A stretch of DNA of 46,603 nt, taken from positions 1 to 46,603 of the forward strand of contig PLYL01000016.1 of assembly GCA_003151795.1 (NCBI GenBank), written 5' to 3'. Of this stretch, positions 3,898 through 45,511 are shown piece after piece. The notes under the pieces were generated by a model. It did not search any database. It was not told the DNA's origin and saw only the letters and a program-made list of their open reading frames with translations. This DNA comes from Candidatus Yanofskyibacteriota bacterium. GTDB lineage: Bacteria > Patescibacteriota > Minisyncoccia > 2-02-FULL-40-12 > GWA2-44-9. How positions within the stretch are numbered: the stretch's first letter is position 1; each line of letters starts with the position of its first letter. The translations under genes were made by a program, and so were the position numbers.

Positions 3898-4073
3898 GCA
3901 AATAAATGAGGAACAAAAGAAGGCGCAGATAGTCGCTTTTAAGATATAATTGCGAGTGTGACACTGCGCCTTCGAAACCAAGTTTGCCAGCAGTCCATAA
4001 TTGTTATCAAACCGCTAGCCGATATAAAAGAACGATACTGCAACTTGCCCTTACTCATCCAGTATAGGGCCAT

Positions 4074-4212
4074 GGTGACAGTGGTGTCAATGTTGATAAG
4101 TGTCACCATGATGTCACCATGTCACCACATCAATATATTGGCTCTATATAACTACTTTCAGTGGTGACAGGAGGTGACACGGTGTATGTCACCACGTCAC
4201 CAAAATGTCACC
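4074..4212. repeat. Iteron-like cluster of TGTCACC / GGTGACA heptamers
   Basis: TGTCACC at 4101, 4112, 4120, 4187, 4206; CGTCACC at 4195; GGTGACA at 4074, 4163, 4173. Confidence 0.7.
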
Positions 4213-4285: not shown

Positions 4286-5677
4286 TTATAAGTTGCCTGG
4301 GACCAAGAAAGTATCAATCGTGGCAAACATGGCTTCCCGAGAACCGGCAATGACCAGATATGTTTTACTGTTGTACTGTACGAGGGCATAGTCGATGGAA
4401 TGATCAGGATAAGGGAAGTTCTTAAATCTCACCGATACGCCCCTGTAGTTAGTCGCCAGGAATGAGCTGGTATTTTTAGCCGGCGCGATTGCCATGACGC
4501 CCGATAAATTCGCGCTCATCGTCGGTTCCCAGCCTTGAAGAATACTGGCGGAGGAACTGGCTACTTCACTGACCATCACCAGCCGAGAGCCCGGAGCGAC
4601 ATTAGTGACCGGCCGGCCTTTAGTATCAAAAGATTCTTTTTGGCCATATAGCAGGAACTTGTAATTCTGGCCGAGTGCCGTTTGGAGAGCGGGCGGATAC
4701 GCTACTATAAAACGATTGAGAAAACCGGAAATTGTCAGGATCTGGGCGCTGGCCGAAGCCCCGCCACTTGCGACATCGATTACTGTCAAAGTTCCTTGAG
4801 TTATATTGGGCTGGGCACTGATAGCGTTGCTGAACGCGACAGTTGGGTCGCCCGATGAGGGAAGCACAATCGCCCCGCCATGGGTCGTGAATATTGTCGA
4901 TAAGACGTCGGGATTGGGCGTGGCCGTTGGGCGAGGAGTGAAGGTCGCCACCGGAGATTCCACGGCGACTGGGCTCGAACCTTGAATCATAAAGTACCAA
5001 TAGAGTACCCCGAGGAGCACCACCGCGACGGCAATCCCGGCAAAAAGAAGATTCCTTGAACCGGCCGGCTTGGCCTCGGCGGGCGGAACATAGAACTGAT
5101 TTTTCTGGTCTAGCTTCGTTTCGGGCGTTTTGGCGGCTGAAGGCATCGAGGGCATTATCGGGCGAGGAATCGGCGCGGATGTTGGAACCTTTGGCGCTTG
5201 CTGGTTTGGAGAGGATGGCAATGGGGCGGATTTAACAGCGGAAGGCAAGCTGGTCGTGGACATTGGCTTCGATGGGGCCGGTACCGGAGCCGCGGGCACC
5301 GCCGGCTTAGCCGGCACGGGAGTATTGTCGATTTTCCTAGGAATATTAACGCCTTGGGGCTGTTGGCCGGCTTTTAGCTTAGCCAAATCATCGCTCATCG
5401 TCCGGATAGATGATTGATATTCCTTGGGCACGGACAGAATAACTGGAGAAACCGGCGGGACTGGGGTTGGGGTTGATGTTATTGGCGGCGGAGTCGCGGG
5501 CCGAGGCGGCAGGCTCGGAGCCGAAGACATTGGCGCCGATTGCGACATCGGCTTGGGTGCTGGATTTACAGGTGACGGAGAAGCCGGACTTGGCGCGGAA
5601 CCTTGCGGACGGCTTAATTCTTTGACCAAATCATCGATGTTAGTTTGAGGAGCTGACGAATTTGGGCTATCGGCCAT
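4286..5677 (-). CDS. Hypothetical proline-rich membrane protein, cytoplasmic P/S-rich N-terminus and one TM helix
   Basis: Long ORF; repetitive P/S/A N-terminus, TM LLFAGIAVAVVLLGVLYWYFMI. Confidence 0.75.
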   Translation of the reverse strand: MADSPNSSAPQTNIDDLVKELSRPQGSAPSPASPSPVNPAPKPMSQSAPMSSAPSLPPRPATPPPITSTPTPVPPVSPVILSVPKEYQSSIRTMSDDLAKLKAGQQPQGVNIPRKIDNTPVPAKPAVPAAPVPAPSKPMSTTSLPSAVKSAPLPSSPNQQAPKVPTSAPIPRPIMPSMPSAAKTPETKLDQKNQFYVPPAEAKPAGSRNLLFAGIAVAVVLLGVLYWYFMIQGSSPVAVESPVATFTPRPTATPNPDVLSTIFTTHGGAIVLPSSGDPTVAFSNAISAQPNITQGTLTVIDVASGGASASAQILTISGFLNRFIVAYPPALQTALGQNYKFLLYGQKESFDTKGRPVTNVAPGSRLVMVSEVASSSASILQGWEPTMSANLSGVMAIAPAKNTSSFLATNYRGVSVRFKNFPYPDHSIDYALVQYNSKTYLVIAGSREAMFATIDTFLVPGNL

Positions 5678-9907: not shown

Positions 9908-10852
9908 ATGGCTGATTTGAAAACTCTTAAAATACAATATCTGGAATACTTAGAGATCGAGAAGAATCGGTCGCCTAAGACACTGGAAAACTATGGACGA
10001 TATTTGGATAGGTTTTTGAACTTTGCCAAAGTGAAAAACGCGGAAGACTTGGATGATGAGCGCATCCGCCAATATCGTCTGCATTTGAATCGCCTGAATA
10101 GAGGAGATGGCCCCTCCTTCGCCAAGGCTTCGGCGGGCGAGCGACCCTTGATGAAAGTTACCCAGAATTACCATGTCATTGCATTGCGGAATTTTTTAAA
10201 GTATCTCGCCAAGCGGGGAGTGCAAAGCGTCTCGGCAGAAAAGATTGAATTGGGCCGAGCCGAGGACCGGCATGTGACTTTTCTTGAACATAGCGAGTTA
10301 GACAGATTATTAAATGCGCCGGAAGGGGACAAGTTGGACGCTCTGCGGGACCGAGCGATGTTGCGGATGCTTTTCTCCACGGGTATGCGCGTCTCCGAAC
10401 TCTGCTCAATGGACCGTAACAAGATTGACGTAAAGCGAGGCGAGCTGTCAGTGCTCGGTAAAGGTCGGAAGATTCGCTTGGTCTTTCTGTCCGAGGACGC
10501 TAAAGATTACATCGCTCAATACCTCGCCAAAAGAACCGACGTCGATGAGGCTTTGTTCATCCGCATTCCCAAATCTGGCAAGTTTGGCAAAGATTCAGAC
10601 CTGCGTCTCACGCCCCGCTCGGTTCAGCGCATCGTCCAAAAATATGCCATCAAAGCCGGCATCATGGGCAAACACGTTTCGCCCCACACTTTGCGTCACA
10701 GCTATGCCACTGATTTATTAAGAAATGGCGCCGACATCCGCTCCGTCCAAGCCATGCTCGGCCATTCTTCGGTTACGACTACCCAAATCTACACCCACGT
10801 CACCGACACCCAGTTGCGGGAGATTCATAAAAAATTTCACGATAAAAAATAA
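9908..10852 (+). CDS. Tyrosine recombinase XerC/XerD family
   Basis: R..HTLRHSYATDLLRNGADIRSVQAMLGHSSVTTTQIYTHV catalytic block. Confidence 0.95.
   Translation: MADLKTLKIQYLEYLEIEKNRSPKTLENYGRYLDRFLNFAKVKNAEDLDDERIRQYRLHLNRLNRGDGPSFAKASAGERPLMKVTQNYHVIALRNFLKYLAKRGVQSVSAEKIELGRAEDRHVTFLEHSELDRLLNAPEGDKLDALRDRAMLRMLFSTGMRVSELCSMDRNKIDVKRGELSVLGKGRKIRLVFLSEDAKDYIAQYLAKRTDVDEALFIRIPKSGKFGKDSDLRLTPRSVQRIVQKYAIKAGIMGKHVSPHTLRHSYATDLLRNGADIRSVQAMLGHSSVTTTQIYTHVTDTQLREIHKKFHDKK
10111..10143. repeat. Palindromic-type element inserted in frame in the xer gene (peptide PSFAKASAGERP)
   Basis: cctccttcgccaaggcttcggcgggcgag; interrupts a conserved N-terminal region. Confidence 0.5.
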
Positions 10853-38957: not shown

Positions 38958-41009
<2,052 letters not shown>

Positions 41010-41017
41010 CACTCTTC

Positions 41018-41051
41018 GACTTATAATTTAGCGTACGCCAAATTATAAGTC
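41018..41051. terminator. Near-perfect 34-bp palindrome between convergent ligA and RT
   Basis: gacttataattt-agcgtacgcc-aaattataagtc. Confidence 0.7.
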
Positions 41052-42032
41052 ATCCATGATTTTATTTTGTAGCTTCTTTGTATTGCCATGACTCAATAAG
41101 CCAAGATATGATTGCTTCACGGCCCCGTTTCCTTGTTTGGCTTTTAAATTCCTTATCATTCGTCTTTTTGTCGTCGTTCTCAAGACTCGATGATTAGGAA
41201 AATGAACCCAGCCCAGAAAATCAACGCCGGAAAATATGGTCCTAACAGAAACCTTGTCAGGATGTAGCTCCAGTTTCAAGCGTTCAGAAAGGAAAGTTTT
41301 AATCTCGGATAAAATTTCTCCAAGCCGAGCTTTGTCTTTCTCTAAAATGACAAAATCATCAGCATATCTAATATAGTATCTCGCTTTTAGGCGATGTTTC
41401 ACAAATTGATCGAACTCATTTAAATATATATTCACCAGAAGTTGAGAGGTTAGGTTTCCTAGAGGCAGACCGATTCCTTCACGAACAGAGAAACTTTGAA
41501 GTATCAGTCTGAACAAATGAATTATATTTTGATCCTCAATATATTTCTCGAGAATAGACAAAAGAATCCCGTGATCAATGGAAGCAAAGAATTTTCGAAT
41601 ATCGCATTTCAAAACCCAGACCGTTTCTTTCCGGTTATTTGATAGCTGCCACACAAATCTTTTAAGTTTCCTAATCGCTTTGTGTGTCGCTTTGTCATAA
41701 CGGCACGAATATGAATCGGGTATAAATGTCCGATCAAAAAACGGATAGAGTTGCCGATATATGGCGCGATGGAGCAATCTGTCTCGAACGCTTGCCTTAT
41801 GGATATTCCTCGGCTTCGGGTCGGAGATATTAAATGCCTCATATCCTCGATGCCGATATGTCCGAGCGACAAGATCATTATGAAGAGAAATAATATTGCT
41901 CATCAAATTCCTCTCAAACTCCTGCACGTCTTTTCGTTGATGCTTCCCAACTATAAATTCTCTCCATGCGCCAAGGAGATTTTCTAAAGATATGATACTA
42001 TCGTAGGTATGAGTGAATCTAATTCGAGCCAT
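41043..42032 (-). CDS. DGR-type reverse transcriptase
   Basis: GLPLGNLTSQLLVNIYLNEFD (DGR-type [L/I]GxxxSQ motif), YYIRYADDFVIL, SGVDFLGWVHFP; adjacent TR/VR pair. Confidence 0.94.
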   Translation of the reverse strand: MARIRFTHTYDSIISLENLLGAWREFIVGKHQRKDVQEFERNLMSNIISLHNDLVARTYRHRGYEAFNISDPKPRNIHKASVRDRLLHRAIYRQLYPFFDRTFIPDSYSCRYDKATHKAIRKLKRFVWQLSNNRKETVWVLKCDIRKFFASIDHGILLSILEKYIEDQNIIHLFRLILQSFSVREGIGLPLGNLTSQLLVNIYLNEFDQFVKHRLKARYYIRYADDFVILEKDKARLGEILSEIKTFLSERLKLELHPDKVSVRTIFSGVDFLGWVHFPNHRVLRTTTKRRMIRNLKAKQGNGAVKQSYLGLLSHGNTKKLQNKIMDDL

Positions 42033-42043
42033 AATCCTTTAAG

Positions 42044-42052
42044 CCCCCCCCC
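42044..42052. repeat. Homopolymeric C9 (G9 on the RT coding strand) just upstream of the RT start
   Basis: aagccccccccccaggctt-type run read as c at 42044-42052. Confidence 0.8.
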
Positions 42053-42430
42053 AGGCTTCTGCCACTTCTGCAGAAAGTTAAGAGTGTTTATCTCATCTGG
42101 TTTCAATATTACCAAACTCTCCCGCGAGGACATAAATACACGCTCGGCCAGCAGATAGATATTCTGTGGATAGAAATTATAAAATCAATTTCAAGTGCGG
42201 CGTTTTTGCCCCGAACAGAAAAGCTTCCTTTCATACGGCTTGCGATACAACGAGTAGATACCTTAAAAATACTTTTGATGGTTCTGTGGGAAGCAAAATC
42301 GCTTCAAGACAAAAGATATGGACTTCTCTCGATGGAAATTGAAACTATCGGCAAAATGCTCGGCGGCTGGTATGGACAAGTCACAAAACAAAACTCCCTC
42401 GGAGTGCCGAAGGAGAAATGAAGATAGTTT

Positions 42431-42555
42431 CGAGCAGAGCCGCGGGATTGTTGTCGTTCCAATCGTTGTCGAGCCAGTTGTAGTTCCGGTGCCACGCACC
42501 GTCGTTGAAGTACAGGTAGCGGACGTACAGGTTGTCGGTCTTCGGATTGCGGTTG
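42431..42555 (-). repeat. DGR template repeat (TR)
   Basis: 125 bp, aligns ungapped (offset 484) to 42915-43039; AAY-rich on the coding strand. Confidence 0.93.
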
Positions 42556-42824
42556 CGTAGAGCGCGCCATCCAAGTCTTCACCGCCCATTGAAGGCCCGT
42601 GCCGATCTCTGGGCTGTATTTCATGCCGTATCTAAAATACGTTAGCACGCTCTACCAAGTATCTTTATTTTTTAAAGTTTCTGCATACGTCACGCTATCT
42701 CGGTCCGACAAGGACAGAAATATTCTGAACGCATGGATACTGGCTTCGGCATCTGGAGACTTTCGTCCCCAGCATATTCGCCTAACGCCGTTTTTATTAT
42801 ACAAAATTTTTTAAAATAGAAATA

Positions 42825-42864
42825 GCCCTGATAGGATTCGCTTGGGGGCAAATCCTATCAGGGC
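42825..42864 (-). other. 14-bp-stem hairpin 51 nt downstream of the VR (candidate DGR target-recognition hairpin or terminator)
   Basis: gccctgataggatt / aatcctatcagggc, 12-nt loop. Confidence 0.7.
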
Positions 42865-42906
42865 AGAGGTTCAGAGGGCCAGGACTTAGCGCCCTAGAAC
42901 CCAGCG

Positions 42907-43578
42907 CTAACTTGCGAGCAGAGCCGCGGGAGAGTTGTCGTCCCAATCGATGTCGAGCCAGTAGTAGAACCGGTGCCACGCACCGTCGTTGAAGTACAGG
43001 CAGCGGACGTATAGGCTGTCGGTCTCCGGATTGCGGTAGATCGTCCCCCAGAAGAAGATGTAGCGAACGTTGCCCTTGTCGTCGCGCTTCCAGTCCTCCG
43101 GGATGAGATGCTGGTTCTCGTAAAGGGCATCGAGAATGTTCGCGTTGAGCACCACCTTCTTGGTGACCTCGTCACGCAACTCGTAGCCCTTGATTGTCTT
43201 GCCATTCAGCTGGCGCTGGGACAGGTAGAGCTCAACTTTGCGCCCACCGACGTACAAGCCGTCGGCACGCTTCTCGACCCCGAACCAGCCGTGGCCCTCG
43301 TGTCTCTCGACCCGCGCGCCATCGAACGGTAGCTTGGGCGAGAAGTCGAGGTTGACCGAGATGGTCGTATCGTTGATCTTGCGCCAGAGGGGCTCGGGGA
43401 CGGGCGGGACGATTGTGGCCTCCGTGATCAGCTTTGCCACCAGCTCGTCGACGAGACGATTCTTGGTGTCTTCTGACAGGCCTAGGACGGCTTCCTCGTT
43501 GCCTTTGATGCCGGTCGTCAGGCGCGTCGTTATTGTCGTGACGAGCCCGAACGCCGAACCAATTTGTGATTTCGCCAT
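42907..43578 (-). CDS. DGR variable protein (target of diversification)
   Basis: C-terminus IYRNPETDSLYVRCLYFNDGAWHRFYYWLDIDWDDNSPAALLAS encoded by the VR. Confidence 0.92.
   Translation of the reverse strand: MAKSQIGSAFGLVTTITTRLTTGIKGNEEAVLGLSEDTKNRLVDELVAKLITEATIVPPVPEPLWRKINDTTISVNLDFSPKLPFDGARVERHEGHGWFGVEKRADGLYVGGRKVELYLSQRQLNGKTIKGYELRDEVTKKVVLNANILDALYENQHLIPEDWKRDDKGNVRYIFFWGTIYRNPETDSLYVRCLYFNDGAWHRFYYWLDIDWDDNSPAALLAS
42915..43039 (-). repeat. DGR variable repeat (VR)
   Basis: 12 mismatches to TR, 11 at TR adenines (coding strand). Confidence 0.93.
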
Positions 43579-43743: not shown

Positions 43744-44049
43744 ATGTTATCTGATACCGAAGTCGAATATATCGCCAAGCTCGCGAGGATTACCATCAAT
43801 GACGCCGAGAAGGAAAAGCTGAAAAAAGATTTGTCGGCGATTTTGGATTACATCGAAAAACTCAACAAAGCCGATACGTCTTCGGTGGAACCGCTCTATC
43901 AAACCACGGGATTAGTAAATGCCACCCGTATAGATGAGCCGCGCGGAGAGTTCCCGATGAACGATAAGTTGGAGGGATTGCTTATCGGCCAAGCCCCGGC
44001 CCGCAAAGAGCGATTCGTGAAAGTTAAATCAATACTGAACAAGAAGTAA
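43744..44049 (+). CDS. gatC: Asp/Glu-tRNA(Asn/Gln) amidotransferase subunit C
   Basis: VEYIAKLARITINDAEKEKLKKDLSAILDYIEKLN. Confidence 0.95.
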   Translation: MLSDTEVEYIAKLARITINDAEKEKLKKDLSAILDYIEKLNKADTSSVEPLYQTTGLVNATRIDEPRGEFPMNDKLEGLLIGQAPARKERFVKVKSILNKK

Positions 44050-44071
44050 GAATTACGAGTTAAGAATTAAG

Positions 44072-45511
44072 ATGCTAGAAAAAAACCATACAATCAAATC
44101 GGCCAGAGAAGCCCTGAAGAGGAGAGATTTTTCCGTTGAGGAATTGTTTAACCATTATCACCAAAGAATCGTCGAGAAGAATAAAGACCTTAACGCTTAT
44201 CTGACTGTTTTTGAAAATTGTCTCCCTACGGGAGATCTCCCAAAGGGAGAGAAATTGAAAACTGAAAATTCGAAATCACCGCTCTGGGGGATTCCGGTGG
44301 CAATCAAGGACAATATGCTTATCGAAGGGACACGCACTACGGCCGGCTCCAAAATACTGGAAAATTACATCTCCGCCTACGACGCCACGGTGATTAAAAA
44401 ACTCCGCTCGGCGGGAGCGGTATTTCTCGGCAAGACCAACCTCGACGAATTCGCCATGGGCAGTTCCACCGAAAACTCGGCCTATGGCCCGACTAAAAAT
44501 CCATTGGATACTTCGCGCATCCCCGGCGGTTCGTCGGGCGGTTCCGCGGCGGCCGTGGCTGGAGATTTGGCTGTTTTTGCTCTTGGTTCGGATACTGGCG
44601 GTTCGATTCGCCAACCAGCTTCCATGTGCGGAATTGTGGGTCTTAAGCCGACTTATGGGCGCGTCTCTCGGCATGGGCTCATCGCAATGGCTTCTTCATT
44701 TGATCAAATCGGGCCACTCACGAAAACCGTTGAAGATTCGGCGATTGTTTTGAATGTGCTCTGCGGCCATGACATCTTTGATTCCACAACCGTTAATAAC
44801 GCAGTGCCAGATTTTACCGCCGCGCTCAATGATTCCATCAAAGGTTTAACTATCGGCGTGCCTAAAGAATTTTTCGGTACAGGTTTATCGCCAGAAGTTG
44901 AAGAACGTATCAAAACCACTATCACAAAACTCAAAGACCTTGGCTGTAAAATCAAAGAAATATCTCTTCCAAATTTTGAATACGCTCTGGCCGCATACTA
45001 TGTCGCCGTGCCCAGCGAAATTTCCGCCAACCTCGCCCGCTTCGACGGTGTCCGCTACGGCTATTCGGCCAAAGACGGAGAGAATCTCATCGATACCTAT
45101 TTCAAATCCCGCACTGAAGGACTTGGAGCCGAACCCAAGCGCCGAATCATGCTCGGCGCCTACGCTTTGTCATCCGGCTACTACGACGCCTATTATTTAA
45201 AAGCTCAAAAAGTCCGCGCCTTGATTAAAAAAGATTTTGATGAGGCATTCAAAGACGTAGACGTCATCGTCGGCCCGACGGCGCCCAACACCGCCTTCAA
45301 GATAGGGGAGAAAGCGTCCGACCCGCTGGCGTTATACTTGGAAGACGTCTACACTGTGCCGGTTAATCTGGCTGGTTTGCCCGCTATTTCAATTCCGTGC
45401 GGATTGGGAACAGAAAGCAAGATGCCCGTCGGGTTTCAAATCATTGCTAAGCCGTTCGACGAAGCCACCTTGCTCCGCGTCGCGCACCAGCTCGAACAAG
45501 CGCTAAAATAG
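44072..45511 (+). CDS. gatA: Asp/Glu-tRNA(Asn/Gln) amidotransferase subunit A
   Basis: GSSGGSAAAVAGDLAVFALGSDTGGSIRQPASMCGIVGLKPTYG. Confidence 0.97.
   Translation: MLEKNHTIKSAREALKRRDFSVEELFNHYHQRIVEKNKDLNAYLTVFENCLPTGDLPKGEKLKTENSKSPLWGIPVAIKDNMLIEGTRTTAGSKILENYISAYDATVIKKLRSAGAVFLGKTNLDEFAMGSSTENSAYGPTKNPLDTSRIPGGSSGGSAAAVAGDLAVFALGSDTGGSIRQPASMCGIVGLKPTYGRVSRHGLIAMASSFDQIGPLTKTVEDSAIVLNVLCGHDIFDSTTVNNAVPDFTAALNDSIKGLTIGVPKEFFGTGLSPEVEERIKTTITKLKDLGCKIKEISLPNFEYALAAYYVAVPSEISANLARFDGVRYGYSAKDGENLIDTYFKSRTEGLGAEPKRRIMLGAYALSSGYYDAYYLKAQKVRALIKKDFDEAFKDVDVIVGPTAPNTAFKIGEKASDPLALYLEDVYTVPVNLAGLPAISIPCGLGTESKMPVGFQIIAKPFDEATLLRVAHQLEQALK
44221..44250. repeat. Family-A palindromic element copy 4, in frame inside gatA
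   Basis: tctccctacgggagatctcccaaagggaga encoding LPTGDLPKG. Confidence 0.85.

Follow-up and report, generated by a model that had tools for sequence, protein, structure and literature searches.

Among described diversity-generating retroelements (DGRs), that of the Bordetella phage BPP-1 (mtd, avd, TR, brt) carries all its genes on one strand, with an accessory ORF between the target gene and the template repeat (TR). When its accessory protein, Avd, is inactivated, retrohoming in E. coli falls to about 1e-9, and a structured priming spacer lies 3′ of its TR (PMC12875486). The same 2026 study calls the natural regulation of DGRs an open frontier. DGRs from CPR bacteria are placed in DGR clade 2 in the survey of Roux et al. 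2021 (PMC8144416), the text of which does not contain the words “avd,” “accessory,” or “frameshift”; with these Patescibacteria/CPR elements, the locus described here shares its taxon, a cellular location, and a target without recognisable domains. In the literature that we searched, there was no report of an antisense avd with a frame-shifting repeat or of a DGR switch of this type: DGRs and phase variation, in the papers inspected that name both, were mentioned separately, and nothing was found for slipped-strand or for CPR combined with avd. The first survey of CPR DGRs, by Paul et al. (2017), lay outside this search, and so an earlier description is not excluded. With that reservation, a slippage switch as a means of DGR control is apparently unreported.

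Phase-variable contingency loci carry a non-triplet repeat, either poly-C/G or another short unit, in or close to the 5′ end of an ORF, are found in mixed frames between genomes, and can swap one repeat type for another; those known switch surface structures, restriction, or methylation, the last through modification methylases (phasevarions). The locus that we describe shares the non-triplet repeat at the ORF start, the mixed frames, and the swaps of repeat type, whereas the gene that would be switched here is part of a targeted hypermutator.

Anatomy of the retroelement

The window, a stretch of 46,603 nucleotides (contig PLYL01000016.1 of assembly GCA_003151795.1, from a Candidatus Yanofskyibacteriota bacterium), holds a genuine patescibacterial DGR, and we regard this identification as settled. 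Our analysis recovered the same gap-free, 125-nt minus-strand alignment of TR (42431–42555) with the variable repeat (VR; 42915–43039) that the first-pass annotation had proposed, and confirmed its count of 11 out of 12 mismatches at TR adenines (A to T, six; A to G, four; A to C, one), the exception being a silent G to A. With 33 adenines among the 125 TR positions, the binomial probability of at least 11 of the 12 falling on A is 3.9e-6. The similarity between the repeats has sharp edges at both ends, and a search of the whole genome, a very small one of 766 kb, found just these two copies, which indicates a single VR. When the same search was applied to related loci, TR adenines were the site of 1597 of the 1718 mismatches in 96 loci; note that a share of 60% or more on A was a condition of that search.

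The reverse transcriptase (RT) gene (41043–42032, minus strand; 329 aa) encodes the motifs LGNLTSQ and YADD and matches Pfam RVT_1 (5.2e-25). Its assignment to the DGR type, made at first from the LGNLTSQ motif, is supported: its closest solved structure is 8ub7 (E 1.5e-46), with group II RTs far behind at 1e-23, and its nearest relatives have DGR anatomy. 8ub7 is the RT of the BPP-1 DGR, since the BPP-1 brt translation matches the chain over residues 1–328 (E 4.5e-230). This typing rests on solved-structure relatives and on the anatomy of the nearest relatives, rather than on a phylogeny that includes retrons and group II introns. A near-perfect 17-bp palindrome (41018–41051) lies directly 3′ of the RT gene. 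The nearest RT relatives in GTDB are Patescibacteria, chiefly Yanofskybacteria and other Parcubacteria, and we read the element as a cellular DGR of a patescibacterium. Its flanks are occupied by ORFs at 39018–41009 on one side and 43744–45511 on the other, which we take to be ligA and gatC/gatA, respectively, placing the cassette on the chromosome.

The target gene (42907–43578, minus strand) codes for a protein of 223 aa with the VR at its C-terminus, and in nearly all related loci, the VR lies no more than about 12 aa from the C-terminus of the target. The protein has no Pfam or NCBIfam match. Its AlphaFold2 model, a confident one with a mean pLDDT of 89.8, finds no fold match at E ≤ 0.001 in the PDB or in the viral BFVD; a C-type lectin fold for the target is thus not supported at this threshold, and the scaffold is possibly other than the usual C-type lectin. 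The adenine-directed differences between TR and VR, a BPP-1-like RT, the placement of the VR at the target's 3′ end, and an Avd homolog (see below) together establish the identity of the element; all of these are shared with BPP-1, as is a stem-loop after the VR, here with a stem of 17 bp (42825–42864, minus strand), which may serve as a terminator, as a retrohoming-assisting element of the BPP-1 type, or as both. That the element carries out mutagenic retrohoming is inferred from this anatomy.

The template side of the element appears to be organized differently from that of BPP-1. A TATAAT box on the minus strand (42796–42801), without a consensus −35, is the proposed −10 element of a promoter for the TR RNA, and a TA-rich box is conserved at this position across a 92-locus leader alignment. 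Just past the box begins a leader of about 235 nt (42556–42791, minus strand), lying between VR and TR, for which an alignment of 43 loci (A1) supports a structured RNA: the model comprises 53 pairs, compatible with 95.7% of cells. Changes on both sides are seen in 46 of the pairs, and this covariation is reached by none of 500 shuffles and is destroyed by sliding. None of the comparisons of the leader with Rfam exceeded threshold, and 17 loci were without a gathering hit in the leader; membership in a curated Rfam family is accordingly not supported. Weak full-length matches to the candidate RNAs RT-16 (42552–42686, E 0.13) and RT-9 (in L053, E 0.48), both named for reverse transcriptases and both containing the hairpin G(R)YUACGGYUU also found in the leader, suggest a kinship that remains provisional, as every match is below the gathering score. 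On the other side, 15 nt after TR, stands a terminator-like hairpin with a T tract (42394–42415, minus strand), where we propose that the TR RNA ends; its presence sets the element apart from BPP-1. Such a hairpin occurs within 75 nt of TR in 65 of the 96 loci, whereas shuffled sequences gave 4 and control windows 9 of 288. The structured RNA of the window is therefore 5′ of TR, in contrast to the 3′ spacer of BPP-1, and the leader together with the hairpin suggests a TR RNA architecture unlike that of the phage element.

An antisense avd and its C tract

The accessory gene of the window lies between TR and RT, on the strand opposite to both. Its body (42053–42421, plus strand; stop codon 42419–42421) matches NCBIfam NF033474 (E 1.8e-15) and bAvd (E 6.4e-9). 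The scores of this copy, 57 bits and 36.7, fall under the respective curated cut-offs of 80 and 40; homologs that exceed the curated cut-off do occur in the phylum. The body frame contains no ATG, GTG, or TTG before 42206, which is well within the domain. Directly upstream of the body is a run of nine cytosines (C9; 42044–42052, plus strand), absent from BPP-1; read on the minus strand, the tract precedes the RT start codon by 12 nt. It is the only C/G run of at least 8 in the window, and the entire genome holds only three of at least 9, of which two are located at its DGRs, one at each, and the third is within a Gly-rich repeat ORF.

By inference from relatives, we propose that avd starts at the ATG at 42009–42011, with N-terminal codons running to the tract (42009–42043), so that the whole gene would span 42009–42421. 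This stretch is antisense to the 5′ end of RT, and RT codon conservation alone could therefore preserve the ATG. The frame from this ATG enters C9 shifted by one base relative to the avd body, and the addition of one C restores it: ten cytosines yield a single ORF, MSESNSSHNPLSPPPRLLPLLQKV... The description of the cassette as complete calls for a qualification, since avd had gone unnoticed, is on the opposite strand, and is out of frame as assembled, which means that the window copy of the DGR may be switched off at present.

Besides the broken-frame avd on the plus strand, the C9 tract, the leader RNA, and the hairpin after TR, a second and divergent DGR in the same genome had escaped the first reading (G000:C7:44441-45737; L119, L025). 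Its RT is 51% identical, and it has its own TR/VR pair, an antisense avd, and a C10 tract, and is also out of frame.

Repeats and reading frames across Patescibacteria

The arrangement in the window is shared by most of its relatives. Out of 131 different avd genes from Patescibacteria, 127 lie opposite to RT, three are on the same strand, and one has no RT on its contig. A non-triplet simple repeat is present at the avd start in 93 of the 127 opposite-strand loci, as poly-C (7–14) in 87, (CA)n in three, and (CAAT)7, (AGGAC)7, and a heptamer in one each. The repeat units are thus 1, 2, 4, 5, or 7 nt long and never 3 or 6, so that each of them shifts the reading frame. The tract precedes the RT start codon by 11–20 nt in most loci, and usually by about 13 nt. 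The same scan found repeats in 11 of 375 avd-body control windows and 8 of 496 RT control windows, with C/G runs in one and none, respectively. In 20 Mb of sequence from 28 same-family genomes, 20 of the 58 C/G runs of at least 9 lie within 120 nt of an RT start, against an expectation of 0.013; a further run at this spot, in L164, is beyond the 20.

The outgroups, drawn from beyond the phylum, differ. All 83 non-patescibacterial viral loci with an identified avd carry it on the same strand as RT, none of these 83 has a repeat at the avd start, and any repeat in RT is limited to 2 of 116, both A8. In seven annotated plasmid DGRs (Proteobacteria, Cyanobacteria, and Chlorobi), avd or a four-helix-bundle protein likewise shares the strand of RT. 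These outgroups, the control windows, and the genome-wide C/G run counts rule out chance as the source of the repeats. Sister loci exchange repeat types (C9 in L035, (CAAT)7 in L048, and a heptamer in L045), and the repeat states require at least 23 changes on the RT tree. A special function of poly-C itself is weakened by its replacement with five other repeat types. Two IMG/VR contigs classed as viral also have antisense avd genes with C tracts (C11 in L243 and C8 in L245), and represent either patescibacterial phages or misclassified host DNA.

The set of loci was picked by similarity to the window RT, with an Avd score in addition for 30 loci, and its percentages therefore hold for the set and not for all Patescibacteria. 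One genome per species was used, without reads, and single tract lengths could be assembly errors; such errors cannot, however, create the repeat pattern. Ns or contig ends fall at the tract in L012, L014, L022, L023, L026, L044, L051, and L164 (G012:C16), as expected of a stretch that is of mixed length or hard to sequence. In L004, the tract at the avd start is now C9 followed by G9 (G010:C22:45656-45673). The (TTAA)3 of L098, being upstream of its ATG, was not scored as a switch. In L093, two TR/avd modules about 6 kb apart match one VR (4021–4143, 4477–4599, and 10399–10521).

If any upstream ATG is allowed, the avd body is in frame in 23 of 88 loci, a proportion that fits one third (p 0.17), and all three phases occur, with counts for phases 0/1/2 of 22/33/33, 19/35/34, or 18/32/38 depending on the ATG chosen. 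In all 29 cases with the ATG motif, the sequence is open to the tract in its own frame, compared with 11 and 4 in the other two frames, although part of this openness may stem from the antisense RT codons. An alternative avd start 3′ of the tract can be set aside, as an ATG, GTG, or TTG between the tract and the domain is found in just 1 of 88 loci; in some loci, TTG or GTG codons do occur within the first few residues of the domain. Closely related copies differ in state: L047, in frame with C13, and L050, out of frame with C9, share 87% avd DNA identity, and L035 (C9, out) and L048 ((CAAT)7, in frame) share 88%. In 53 out-of-frame loci, avd bodies are intact and VRs diversified, which indicates that the off states are not old and are short-lived. 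Counted as mismatches per TR adenine, VR divergence does not differ between in-frame and out-of-frame loci (0.55 and 0.58; p 0.71), so that frame state does not predict past use, and VR divergence is a record of past use and not of current activity. The claim that the repeat pair of the window had been recently used is, for this reason, not demonstrated.

A second site of frame-shifting repeats was observed within RT itself. Some RTs of the same family look split, and in L167 and L168 (L030), the split is exactly at a (GA)n directly before the GNLTSQ motif. A scan of all RTs found (GA)8–19 just before GNLTSQ in nine loci of the set; these nine and L167 comprise three in frame and seven out. 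The two repeat sites are mutually exclusive in the set (avd only, 93; RT only, 9; both, 0; neither, 25; Fisher 3e-6), and two of the 25 of the 127 pairs with neither have Ns at the site. This exclusion could partly follow phylogeny; on the RT tree, GA and non-GA loci stand as neighbors. One locus without an avd repeat, L027, has (GGAT)11 near the RT 3′ end, roughly 1140 nt from the beginning of the RT ORF stretch, a possible third switch position. Of the hallmarks of phase-variable loci, a frame-shifting repeat with a unit that is not a multiple of three is thus met by the C9 of the window and by 93 of 127 relatives, and the presence of in-frame and out-of-frame alleles among related genomes is met for both the avd and the RT repeats.

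Proposed slipped-strand control of the DGR and its alternatives

We consider it likely that these loci are DGRs whose mutagenic retrohoming is under on/off control by slipped-strand mispairing, in the manner of a phase-variable contingency locus. Under such a model, a discrete TR RNA, consisting of the structured leader, TR, and the terminator-like hairpin and started from the TATAAT box, would be copied by RT with the assistance of Avd; copying errors would fall opposite adenines, and the cDNA would then replace the VR in the target gene. We assume here that Avd is needed for retrohoming in the patescibacterial clade as it is in BPP-1. The avd gene would be read from the opposite strand through C9, which sits between the start codon and the conserved domain, and the gain or loss of a repeat unit would put avd in or out of frame, so that daughter lineages inherit the DGR as on or off. 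The assembled window, with C9, would be off, and ten or seven cytosines would be on. In other Patescibacteria, (CA)n, (CAAT)n, (AGGAC)n, or the heptamer in avd, or (GA)n in RT, would play the same role. With avd (or RT) in frame in a minority of cells, only those cells would diversify the target. Slippage within populations and its effect on DGR activity are inferences from the comparison of genomes.

Runs of 9–14 cytosines are long enough for RNA polymerase slippage. One could therefore ask whether transcriptional slippage or ribosomal frameshifting on the C run supplies a constant low level of in-frame Avd without any switch, all the more since roughly three in four loci are out of frame. 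A programmed shift would, however, keep a single phase, and all three occur; as a sole explanation, a constant programmed frameshift is ruled out by the mixed phases. The di-, tetra-, and pentanucleotide units, the heptamer, and the (GA)n of RT are, moreover, not known substrates for programmed slippage. We hold this alternative to be unlikely, though slippage of RNA polymerase or the ribosome could coexist with slippage of DNA. The closeness of the tract to the RT start raises another possibility, as any change in tract length also alters the 5′ spacing of RT: the repeat could act on the RT side, as a poly-G in its promoter or 5′ UTR or in a longer TR-RT transcript, with the effect on the avd frame being secondary. 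The substitution of poly-C by CA, CAAT, AGGAC, and heptamer repeats and the absence of 3- and 6-nt units favor frame switching over a role in spacing or of a G tract, the (GA)n of RT lies within coding sequence, and a terminator-like hairpin separates TR from RT. We give this explanation even less credence.

Homopolymers are error-prone in sequencing, and several assemblies have Ns or end at the tract, so that we also considered that no switch exists, the DGR being an ordinary one whose avd is a pseudogene or whose homopolymer lengths are misassembled. Yet the tract recurs in dozens of independent assemblies and taxa, the avd bodies of out-of-frame loci have remained intact, repeats from dinucleotides to heptamers do not present the usual miscounting problem, and C/G runs of at least 9 are otherwise rare in these genomes. 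This seems to us the most doubtful of the alternatives. Slipped-strand switching of avd or RT remains the explanation that we prefer. As a broader interpretation, held with slightly less assurance, patescibacterial DGRs are probably heritable stochastic hypermutators in which selection has repeatedly installed frame-shifting repeats in avd or RT, such that a clonal minority has diversification on and the rest keep the current receptor.

If this is true, Patescibacteria, in which DGRs are common, would regulate them by a mutation-based switch acting on the mutator itself. Being antisense and often broken in frame, avd would be easy to miss in these genomes. The model would be testable at once, since tract lengths can be counted in existing deep metagenomes. 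A contingency locus would in this case command a targeted hypermutation system, joining two classical mechanisms of diversity in one element.
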